From positions 1 to 64,000 of the forward strand of contig JANRLT010000042.1 in NCBI GenBank assembly GCA_033762255.1: DNA of 64,000 nt, read 5' to 3'. This DNA is from Pirellulales bacterium (GTDB lineage: Bacteria > Planctomycetota > Planctomycetia > Pirellulales > JALHPA01). A program made the position numbers and the translations under genes. The notes under the pieces were generated by a model. The model worked only from the letters and a program-made list of their open reading frames with translations, did not search any database and was not told the origin of the DNA. This document shows positions 7,075 to 52,844 of the stretch, piece after piece. The stretch's first letter is position 1. The number at the start of each line of letters is the position of its first letter.

Positions 7075-9171
7075 TTATTTCCGCCCAAGTGTGGGAATGG
7101 ACAACAAGCGCAGTAGGCTCAGGCCGATCGTGGCCAAGCCGCCCAGGAACCAAACGCTGGGCTCCGGAACCACGCTGATGCTGCCGGTCGTGGCGAAGGT
7201 GTTGGTGTCCCACGTCAACCCGGCCGTTAGCGGGGCCTGCGTGAAGTCGAAGCTCCACGACCCGCCGATTGTGCCTGCAAAGTCGAACAGGTCGAAACTG
7301 TCGTCGAGCACAGGTGTGTAGCCGCCAAGGTCGATACGGATGATCGAGTCGTTGAAGCTCAGCGCGCCGGTAAGATTGATCTGGTCGAAGCTCGACAGCG
7401 ATTCGATCTCCATCAGGTAATCCCCGCTGCCCAAGAGGTTACCGGTGATGCTCATGACGCCCGGCGAGTTGCCGGGGGAGAACAGGCCAGCGTTGACGAC
7501 ATTGCCGACGATAAAGCCCGCGCCGGCGAGCGTCGCGTTACTGGCGACCGTTACCGTGCCGCCGCCGTTGAGCGTGCCGTTGACGAGCAGCATGTTGCCG
7601 GTGTTCCCCGCGGTGCCGACGTTGACCTGGCTGGCGGTCAGCGTGCCGGCGATGACTAGCGTGTTGTCGTTCGACCCGGCGTTCTGCCCCACATAAACGG
7701 CCTTGCCTGCGGCGGTGACGTCGCCTGTGTTACCGGCGAGCAGGGTCACTTGGTTGTCGCTGGTGGTCTGGCCAATGATCCAGTCGTCCCGCGAGATAAA
7801 GCTGATGCCGTCGATCGTCCGGCTAGCGTTGCCTTCGTCCAGTGTGGTAACGGAGCTGACCGTCCCGGTGTAAGCGCGGCCTGTACCCAAGTTTTTGCCA
7901 AAGGCACCGATGGTGAACGCGTCACCCGCCAGGCTCACAGAGCTGCCGAAGCTATCACTCCCAGCGCCGTCGGAGGCGACCAATTTGACGTGCTGCGTGA
8001 CAGTAAGGCTGGCGGTGTCGAGGTTGCGGAAGACGTAGGCCGAGCCTTGATTGAAGCTCGCCCCGATGTCGTCCGAGTAAGCCCCGATCAGCCCGGTCGT
8101 GCCCGACAGGCTCACGGAATAGCCGAAATCATCATCCCGCGCACCATCGGAAGCAACCAGCTTGACGTTCTGGTTGACTGTGCCGCTGGCGGTGTGGAGG
8201 TTGCGGAAGACGTAGGCCGAGCCTTGATCGCTGTTCGGCCCGATGTCGTCCTGGTAAGCTCCGACTAGGCCAATCGTGCCCGACAAGCTTACGGAATGGC
8301 CGAAGTAGTCATCCTCCGCCGTGTCGAAGGCGGTGAGTTTGACGTGCTGCGTGACCGTGCCGCTGGCGGTGTGGAGGTTGCGAAAGACGTAGGCCGAGCC
8401 TTGATTGAAGCTCGCCCCGGTGCCATCCGCGTAAGCCCCGACCAGGCCGATCGTCCCCGACAGGCTCACAGAAGAGCCGAACGAGTCATCCGCTGCGCCG
8501 TCGGAGGCGACCAGCTTGACGTGCTGCGTGACCGTGCCGGTGGCGGTGTCGAGGTTGCGGAAGACGTAGGCCGAGCCTTGAGCTCTGTTCGCCCCGATGT
8601 CGTCCGAGTAAGCCCCGATCAGCCCGATCGTGCCCGACAGACTCACGGATCTGCCGAATTGGTCTGATCTCGCGCCGTCGGAGGCGGTGAGCTTGGCATT
8701 CTCGTTGACTGTACCGGTGGCGGTGCCCAAGTTGCGGAAGACGTAGGCCGAGCCTTGAGCAGTGTTCGACCCGATCGTGTCCCTCACAGCCCCGACCAGG
8801 CCGGTTGTGCCTGACAGACTTACGGACCAGCCGAAACTGTCACCCCCCGCGCCGTCGGAGGCGACCAGCTTGACCTGCTCGTTGACCGTGCCGTTGGCGG
8901 TGCCGAGGTTGCGGAAAACGTAAGCCGAGCCTTGATCGACAGTCGACCCGATGTCGTCCCAGTAAGCCCCGACCAGCCCGGTCGTGCCTGACAAGCTCAC
9001 GGAATGTCCGAACCGATCAACCCCTGCGCCATCGGAGGCGGTGAGGACGGCCGCATGGACAGGTTGCCACGCCAGGCTTAGCACACCCGCCGCCACGACA
9101 ATTGCCGCGAGTAGGCGCATAGCGCAGGTGTGGCGTGACATTGTCGTTGAACGATTTTTCTGCATGATCAT
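7075..9171 (-). CDS. Secreted FG-GAP-type repeat protein with PEP-CTERM sorting signal
   Basis: A 698-aa protein. A signal peptide ends at about residue 40 (PVHA). Residues 43-396 are six 59-aa repeats containing FGxSVSLSGTxGLVGAY and QGSAYVFRNL, of the FG-GAP/beta-propeller type, plus a partial seventh. Then come an autotransporter-like beta-helix stretch (GTLTASQVNVGTAGN) and a C-terminal VVPEPSVWFLGGLATIGLSL followed by a basic end (LGRK), the PEP-CTERM tripartite signal recognised by exosortase/archaeosortase systems. The protein is probably exported and surface-processed. The start is supported by GAGGGG 7 nt upstream; ATGs at codons 3 and 11 are alternatives. Function beyond being an exoprotein is unknown. 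Confidence 0.88.
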   Translation of the reverse strand: MIMQKNRSTTMSRHTCAMRLLAAIVVAAGVLSLAWQPVHAAVLTASDGAGVDRFGHSVSLSGTTGLVGAYWDDIGSTVDQGSAYVFRNLGTANGTVNEQVKLVASDGAGGDSFGWSVSLSGTTGLVGAVRDTIGSNTAQGSAYVFRNLGTATGTVNENAKLTASDGARSDQFGRSVSLSGTIGLIGAYSDDIGANRAQGSAYVFRNLDTATGTVTQHVKLVASDGAADDSFGSSVSLSGTIGLVGAYADGTGASFNQGSAYVFRNLHTASGTVTQHVKLTAFDTAEDDYFGHSVSLSGTIGLVGAYQDDIGPNSDQGSAYVFRNLHTASGTVNQNVKLVASDGARDDDFGYSVSLSGTTGLIGAYSDDIGASFNQGSAYVFRNLDTASLTVTQHVKLVASDGAGSDSFGSSVSLAGDAFTIGAFGKNLGTGRAYTGTVSSVTTLDEGNASRTIDGISFISRDDWIIGQTTSDNQVTLLAGNTGDVTAAGKAVYVGQNAGSNDNTLVIAGTLTASQVNVGTAGNTGNMLLVNGTLNGGGTVTVASNATLAGAGFIVGNVVNAGLFSPGNSPGVMSITGNLLGSGDYLMEIESLSSFDQINLTGALSFNDSIIRIDLGGYTPVLDDSFDLFDFAGTIGGSWSFDFTQAPLTAGLTWDTNTFATTGSISVVPEPSVWFLGGLATIGLSLLRLLSIPTLGRK
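7984..9045 (-). repeat. Six tandem 177-bp coding repeats
   Basis: Six in-frame units of 177 bp (59 codons) inside the PEP-CTERM gene, with a shorter seventh to about 7897. Neighbouring units share long identical blocks (for example around GGTTGCGGAAGACGTAGGCC on the plus strand), indicating recent duplication or gene conversion. Unit number could vary between strains. Confidence 0.85.
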
Positions 9172-24865: not shown

Positions 24866-24876
24866 GAGAGGAGAGG

Positions 24877-24967
24877 CGGGAGACGGGAGACGGGAGACGG
24901 GAGGCGAGAGACGCGGGTCGTGAGACGCGGGAGACGGGAGGAGGGAGACGGGAGGCGGGAGGCGGGG
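24877..24967. repeat. Heptamer tandem array (CGGGAGA type), 13 units
   Basis: Starting 12 nt after the ParA stop codon, 13 consecutive 7-bp units can be read without a gap: CGGGAGA three times, then CGGGAGG, CGAGAGA, CGCGGGT and drifting variants. The inverse family (CGTCTCC) occurs at 52761-52844. Confidence 0.85.
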
Positions 24968-50459: not shown

Positions 50460-52719
50460 ATGTCCCCTCTTGCCTCTTTTTATCGCTGGTGGATCGGCAC
50501 GGCCTGCCTGCTATGGTTGGCGGGGTGCGCTATGCCTTCCCGCGCGCCTGTCGCGACGGGAACGCCGGCGGTAACCGGGGCTCCCACGGCCAACCTCCCC
50601 GCCCCCACGCTGGTAACCGCCGTGGCCCAACCGGGCGTCACCCTCGTCCCGGGAAGGCTTGTGGCTCCGGTGGGCAACGAAGTTCTCTTGGTCAGCGCAG
50701 TGCATCAAACAGGCCGTCCCCAGGCCCCCTACCAGCGGGTGGAGTGGCTGCTCAGTCCCAATAGCGTCGGGACGTTCTTATCTGTGGCTAGTAGCGATAA
50801 ACCGTATGTGGTGCAACTGTTTGGCGGGGCAAATCCCCGTAAACTGGATAACAACTACGCGGTAAGCGAAACAGCCGCCGTGGCCCGTGTGCTTAATCGG
50901 GGGACCGCTATCACGACCGATGACGTGTCAATTCTGCCCGGACAAGCCTGGCTTACGTTGACTTCTCCCGTGGAAGGGGTCAGCTTTGTCACCGCGTATG
51001 CCCCAGAAATCACCGGCACCCTGACCAATCGCCAAACCGCCGCCATCTATTGGGTGGATGCCCGCTGGGTGTTATCGCCCACGCAGACCGCCGCTGTCGG
51101 CGGGCCGGCGGTGGTGACCGCGACGGTTTTTCGCCAATCGACCGGCCAACCGGTGCCCAACTGGCGGGTGCGGTTTACGGTAGGGGGTGGTCCGCCGGTC
51201 AATCTATCCGCCGCGGGCGCCCAATCCGCCGAGGTTACGACGAACGCGCAAGGCCAAGCGAGTGTTGAACTGACGCAGGTCACTCCCGCCGCCGCCACAA
51301 ACGTCTTGACCGTGGAACTCATTCGTCCCGCCGAGGCGACCCCCGGCGCGGTGGAGCCACTGACCGTGGGGACCGCGCAAACGCAGGTTGTATGGACCGA
51401 GGGGGCAATTTCCCCGCCTGCGCAAACCCCGGCGGTGCCGGTGCCCCCCACCACCCCCCCGGTTACAACGCCCACCGTTCCCCCCGCCGTCAGCCCGATT
51501 CGTTTGACGCTGGTTGGGCCTCGTTCGGGGCCTGTTAATACGCCCGTGCGGTTTCAATTGGATATTACAAATGTGGGATCGACGGCATTAGAGAATGTGG
51601 CATTAACAAATCGCTTGGATCCCGGTTGGCGGCATAGCACGGGGTTAAGTACGATCAAACGAACGCTTCCCGCGATCCAGGCGGGACAAACCGTGACGGT
51701 GCCGATCGAGATCTTGCCCACGCAGGCGGGGCGTTTGTGCCAGTCCATCACCGCCGAAACCGCCAGCGGTCAACCGGCGACGGTCCGCGAGTGTTTTGAC
51801 GCGTTGCCCGCGGCGGGCACGGGAACGGTCACCCCCGCGCCAGTAAATCCCGGCGCGCCGACCAATCCCAACGTCAATCCGGCCAATCCCAATCCTCAAT
51901 CTGGCCAATCCCAATCCTCAATCTGGCCAGACGCCCGAAAATACCGGATTACGGATCGCGCTCAATAGTCCCGTCCGCGAAATGGCGGTCGGCGAAGAAC
52001 AGACATTCAGCGTGGAAATCGCCAATACCGGCGATGTGGCCATCCCGGAACTTCGCGTGGTTTTGCGCATTGATGAACAGTTCCAGCTCACTCAGACACG
52101 TTACCAGGAAGAGCGATATGGTTTTCAGCGCGATCCGGTCAATCGCACCTTTAATTATGTCTTTAAAAACCTACAGCCCAAGGAATCCCTGAATAAGCCA
52201 CTGGATTTTGTCTTGCGGGCGGTGCGACAAACAGCCCCCAATCAACAGGCCCGGATCGATGTGACGGTTACCGCGGGGGGTGTGCCGCTGGCGGACCAAA
52301 AATTACTGGCGATCACGCCCCCGCGGGCGGCGTCAGCTACGGCGGGGAGCCGGACGGACTTGGCCCTCACGCGGGATAATCCGCCGCAAATCCAATTGGG
52401 CACCCGGCAAAAAATCTCCATTGTTCTAAGCAACAGCGGCAGCGTCGCCGACAAAAATGTGCAACTGCTGGTCTCCCTACCCGATTTGGTAACGTTTCAA
52501 GAAACCGACATCACGTCCAAGGTGCGGATGAGCATTGAGGGGAATGTGGTACGGTTCGATCCGTTGCCGGAATTGCCCGCGGGGCAGAGCGTGCTGGTCA
52601 CGATCGGCTATCAAGCGGCCAAGGTGGGAACCGGCCAATTTACGGCCAGATTTGTCAGCCAGGAACAACCCCAGGGCCAAACCCGCACGGAAAATCTACA
52701 GGTGTTTGATAATCCGTAG
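50460..52719 (+). pseudogene. Lipoprotein with DUF11/CARDB-like repeats, frame broken by a 22-bp tandem duplication
   Basis: The first frame (50460-51968) encodes a lipoprotein: MSPLASFYRW leader and lipobox LAGC with Cys23, Ig-like domains, a Pro-rich linker, then one DUF11-type domain. The second frame (51982-52719) continues with another such domain (VREMAVGEEQTFSVEIANTG) and has no start site of its own. The break lies at a 22-bp direct duplication (51883-51926). Removing one copy joins SGQ in one frame to TPENTGLRIAL in the other and restores a single ~745-residue protein. It could be a real frameshift, a phase-variable switch or a sequencing error. The function is probably cell-surface. 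Confidence 0.82.
51883..51926 (+). repeat. 22-bp tandem duplication causing the frameshift
   Basis: Two identical, adjacent 22-bp units (51883-51904 and 51905-51926), each starting CCAATCCCAATCCTC and ending AATCTGG. Since 22 is not a multiple of 3, the second unit shifts the reading frame by one. The surrounding codons encode a repetitive Asn-Pro linker, a good substrate for slippage. Confidence 0.95.
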
Positions 52720-52721
52720 GG

Positions 52722-52844
52722 TAGTGGATAGTGGATAGTGGATAGTGGAGAACGCCACCCCGTCTCTCGTCTCCCGTCTCCCGTCTCTCGTCTCCCGTCT
52801 CTCGTCTCCCGTCTCTCGTCTCCCGTCCCTCGTCTCCCGTTCCG
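52722..52844. repeat. Two adjacent heptamer arrays (GTGGATA and CGTCTCC types)
   Basis: GTGGATA repeats about four times (52725-52750) just after the lipoprotein stop codon. From 52761, twelve exact 7-bp units alternate CGTCTCT and CGTCTCC, ending CGTTCCG. The second array is the reverse complement of the ParA-side family. It ends about 45 bp before the tail of the ABC ATPase gene. Confidence 0.9.

Follow-up and report, generated by a model that had tools for sequence, protein, structure and literature searches.

Several kinds of tandem duplication have been described that bear on the locus reported here. In phase-variable contingency genes, slipped-strand mispairing acts on repeats inside the reading frame, as in the AGTC repeats of mod in H. 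influenzae (cited in PMC3711429). Variable tandem repeats with long units have been described in M. tuberculosis, for example the 57-bp duplication in the dop promoter (PMC12817950). Short duplications formed by slipped-strand events also give rise to frameshift alleles and pseudogenes, and it has been argued that frameshifts seen in one genome only and confirmed by homology often reflect errors of sequencing (PMC3711429). The DUF11/CARDB Ig-like repeat proteins of Pirellulales form the fourth point of comparison, since their domain order and N-terminal region match those of the gene studied here across the order.

The gene lies in a stretch of 64,000 nucleotides (the window) of a Pirellulales bacterium, whose genome is a 5.47-Mb draft in 72 contigs, and it is split by an exact 22-bp tandem duplication. 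It shares with the contingency genes a repeat inside the reading frame, a unit not divisible by three (22 bp in 2.23 copies) and a likely surface protein as the product, but it has two units only, the unit is long, and neither the repeat tract with its frame transition nor the split state recurs in relatives. With the M. tuberculosis repeats it has in common a long-unit tandem duplication of potentially changing copy number, whereas those repeats lie in promoters and their variation was measured by deep sequencing, while this one is coding and known from one assembly. An exact head-to-tail duplication, a short bounding word, a length that is not a multiple of three, a singleton disruption and intact relatives are all shared with the slipped-strand frameshift alleles and pseudogenes, from which the locus differs in nothing of note. 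We read it as a single, probably recent slipped-strand event that left a truncation or loss allele of a conserved Pirellulales envelope lipoprotein, with a probability of roughly two in three. Publications on phase variation in planctomycetes, on short duplications and on Pirellulales DUF11 proteins yielded nothing on the split gene. The coordinates of its features are collected in Table 1.

Table 1. Features of the split gene and of the duplication (positions in the window)
Feature	Coordinates	Strand	Remark
N-terminal ORF of the split gene	50460..51968	+	Terminated by an out-of-frame TAG
Overlap with both frames open, 122 bp	51847..51968	+	Coding signal changes frame at about 51896
Diverged 21-bp copy of the unit, older and in frame	51862..51882	+	Encodes NPNVNPA; just 5' of the exact units
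First exact 22-bp unit	51881..51902	+	Sequence GGCCAATCCCAATCCTCAATCT
Second exact 22-bp unit	51903..51924	+	Sequence identical to GGCCAATCCCAATCCTCAATCT
Third GGCCA word	51925..51929	+	With GGCCA at 51881, the 5-bp microhomology bounding the duplication
C-terminal half, in the other frame	51940..52719	+	Ig-like domains of CARDB and DUF11 type; intact coding signal

The exact array extends from 51881 to 51929 with 27 consecutive period-22 matches, and GGCCA occurs three times at a spacing of 22 bp, so that the array consists of two whole units plus five bases. The count of 3.1 copies given by Tandem Repeats Finder (51862-51929, period 22, 93% matches) is higher because the diverged 21-bp copy adjoins the array upstream. 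The sequence-only reading had placed two identical units at 51883-51926, which is a register as valid as 51881-51924, and had located them in an Asn-Pro repeat linker; the duplication indeed sits in a linker rich in Asn and Pro. With up to three mismatches allowed, the 22-mer is found nowhere else in the 5.47-Mb assembly, and thus chance is no explanation for its duplication. It was also absent from the viral contigs searched.

Since 22 leaves a remainder of one when divided by three, the first frame meets a TAG at 51966-51968, and the open stretch of the second frame spans 51847-52719. If one of the two units is disregarded, the covering stop-to-stop frame grows from 512 to 755 codons. A three-periodic Markov coding-frame Viterbi scan of 1.62 Mb, to which the position was not supplied, located a switch of frame within the repeat, at 51896. 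The earlier propositions that the duplication shifts the frame by one and that the two ORFs join when one unit is removed are borne out by these results, and it is arithmetically right that the frame would be kept with 1, 4 or 7 units.

Read from the ATG at 50460, the N-terminus is MSPLASFYRWWIGTACLLWLAGC, in which LLWLAGC (residues 17-23) was picked out by eye as a putative lipoprotein-type signal peptide and lipobox motif, and similar lipobox-like motifs are present in several relatives; by this motif the N-terminus fits a lipoprotein. The first half comprises a conserved Pirellulales N-terminal region followed by weak Big_1-like and DUF11/CARDB-like Ig matches, and in the second half CARDB (6.1e-8) and DUF11 (1.1e-6) both score above the curated cut-offs. 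In two intact relatives DUF11 is matched at 2.8e-19 and 9.7e-21, with the same domain order as here. The second half is predicted by AlphaFold2 to form two beta-sandwich domains, with a mean pLDDT of 84.8, and a profile search against solved structures gave one marginal match only (E 0.009). Judged from its domains, the split gene belongs with the DUF11/CARDB Ig-like envelope proteins of Pirellulales and is classed there as a disrupted allele; it does not have the continuous frame of these proteins, the frame being broken at the linker that precedes the last two domains. A relative of the C-terminal half is encoded elsewhere in the same genome, on contig C16, and loss therefore need not give a phenotype.

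Relatives found by name belong to Pirellulales and to other planctomycetes. Of the 396 genomes sampled from the order, 327 have a relative of the first half (227 of 252 when good-quality genomes are counted), and no internal stops occur among the matches listed. Relatives of the second half were found in 48 of 57 genomes. Both halves are encoded in one frame at 38 loci, a set that includes a few genes fetched twice, and the linker between them is of very variable length and often rich in Pro and Ala. An alignment search provided 80 named distant relatives, six of which run off their contig; in all 74 uncut relatives the frame extends at least 245 amino acids beyond the point where the first-half match ends; the corresponding figure here is about 50. 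At no locus of the named relatives does the second half stand in another frame, and none is split at the linker. The sequence-only reading had advised comparing the locus in close relatives; the comparison with the relatives described here supports a frame break in a gene that is normally read in a single frame.

The relatives also contain 14 short tandem arrays of at least 18 bp, and 13 of them have a period divisible by three (9, 12, 15 or 21 bp), the sole exception being a 10-bp word repeated twice; as these arrays indicate, the gene family tolerates repeat growth mainly when the frame is kept. No tandem repeat comparable to the 22-bp one is present at the linker in the relatives, whose repeats are elsewhere or in frame. 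A single-protein scan of the contig collection recovered no relative of the split gene. Among the whole genomes searched there is no other from the same genus, and the family is represented by a single further draft, which has no match to the gene and carries the PQQ neighbour gene in a different context.

Misalignment of two GGCCA words spaced by 22 bp would duplicate 22 bp within the linker between Ig-like domains. These words are read in different phases, as G-GCC-A and as GGC-CA, which would explain why the duplication measures 22 and not 21 bp and moves the frame by one. The expected product would be a truncated lipoprotein with its N-terminal domains complete and the last two Ig-like domains gone. 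The orphaned C-terminal half, with no signal peptide, would at best be re-initiated at its first ATG, at 51982, and would then not be exported, so that truncated lipoprotein and unexported C half together would amount to a loss or truncation allele. The truncated protein retains whole domains, and its function may persist. Along its whole length the second half matches its neighbours in codon usage and in GC by codon position, and it has accumulated no stops. Together with the identical units and the lack of any further gene broken in this way within 1.62 Mb, this undecayed state argues for a single recent event; identical units and undecayed coding fit recency but do not date the event. The locus thus combines intact relatives, a singleton disruption and an undecayed downstream half, as a recent frameshift allele or pseudogene does. 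As the repeat is exact, a reverse slip could remove one unit, and no sign was found that switching had been selected.

It is unlikely, yet to be taken seriously, that the organism carries one unit and that the second is an assembly error or the minor allele of a mixed population that was chosen in the assembly. The genome is a draft, and no relative shares the disruption, the gene being intact in all of them, which places the disruption among the homology-confirmed singleton frameshifts, a class argued to be often erroneous (PMC3711429). The survey of 1.62 of the 5.47 Mb of the same genome points the other way. In it, exact tandem duplications with periods of at least 15 bp numbered 17, and the 51881-51929 array was the only one in which disregarding a unit unites two long frames, no other exact tandem duplication splitting a long frame. 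The survey also gave 43 candidate frame switches, most of which are ordinary gene overlaps; about eight switch at least 40 nt before the upstream stop and so have a comparable geometry, ordinary overlaps included. Gene-breaking duplications and frame switches are therefore few, and the assembly is not generally frame-broken. The 49-bp array is, moreover, shorter than usual reads, which also speaks against a misassembly.

Other repeats were observed near the gene and across the genome. Arrays of the heptamer CCCGTCT, its reverse complement or variants are dispersed in the genome, apparently mostly between genes, and 13 arrays of at least four units were counted in 1.62 Mb. Examples lie in the window at 52759-52840, which is 40 bp past the stop of the split gene, and at 24866-24966, and also at L059:7607-7676, L063:1455-1510, L067:873-935, L070:1901-1963 and L112:8541-8673. 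These arrays recall the heptamer short tandem repeats of cyanobacteria. Four exact copies of TAGTGGA (52722-52749 of the window) stand directly after the split gene's stop codon, ahead of the CCCGTCT array. At 7964-9045 of the window there are about six tandem repeats of 177 bp, a period divisible by three, which are 78% alike and probably encode a repeat-domain protein. On contig C21 of the same genome (L078:19599-19765), a 16-bp unit CTACCCTGACACTGTC and a variant of it make up a tandem array of about ten copies that lies in no open frame.

That the truncated lipoprotein is itself the working product, or that coupled translation or ribosomal frameshifting yields the C-terminal half, appears very unlikely. 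The truncation does fall between domains, and the ATG at 51982 is 13 nt past the stop, but the arrangement occurs in no relative, the C-terminal half would be without a signal peptide, and no obvious ribosome-binding site was seen by eye before this ATG. A programmed ribosomal frameshift was considered as a candidate and rejected, because the frame transition is not conserved and no relative has the two halves in different frames.

Least probable of all is an evolved switch in which slippage alters the number of 22-bp copies and thereby decides whether the full-length surface protein is made (1, 4 or 7 units) or not: exact units of a length not divisible by three, a probable surface lipoprotein as the usual kind of target (PMC3711429) and the precedent of M. 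tuberculosis promoters, where long tandem units are known to switch by changes in copy number (PMC12817950), speak for it, but there are two units only, and the relatives have no comparable repeat at the linker, no split frame and other repeats that nearly all keep the frame. The reversible switch put forward in the sequence-only reading is accordingly not supported, and the recent knock-out that it had offered beside the switch and an assembly error stands as the likeliest of its three readings, as a frame-breaking duplication that is probably recent.

The locus looks like an ordinary one-off frameshift allele in a protein family found across the order. As a single frameshift allele it has little importance beyond annotation, in which both ORFs should be treated as one gene and not as two proteins. 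If mixtures of copy number were to prove true, the gene would represent a rare instance of contingency switching in a free-living planctomycete.
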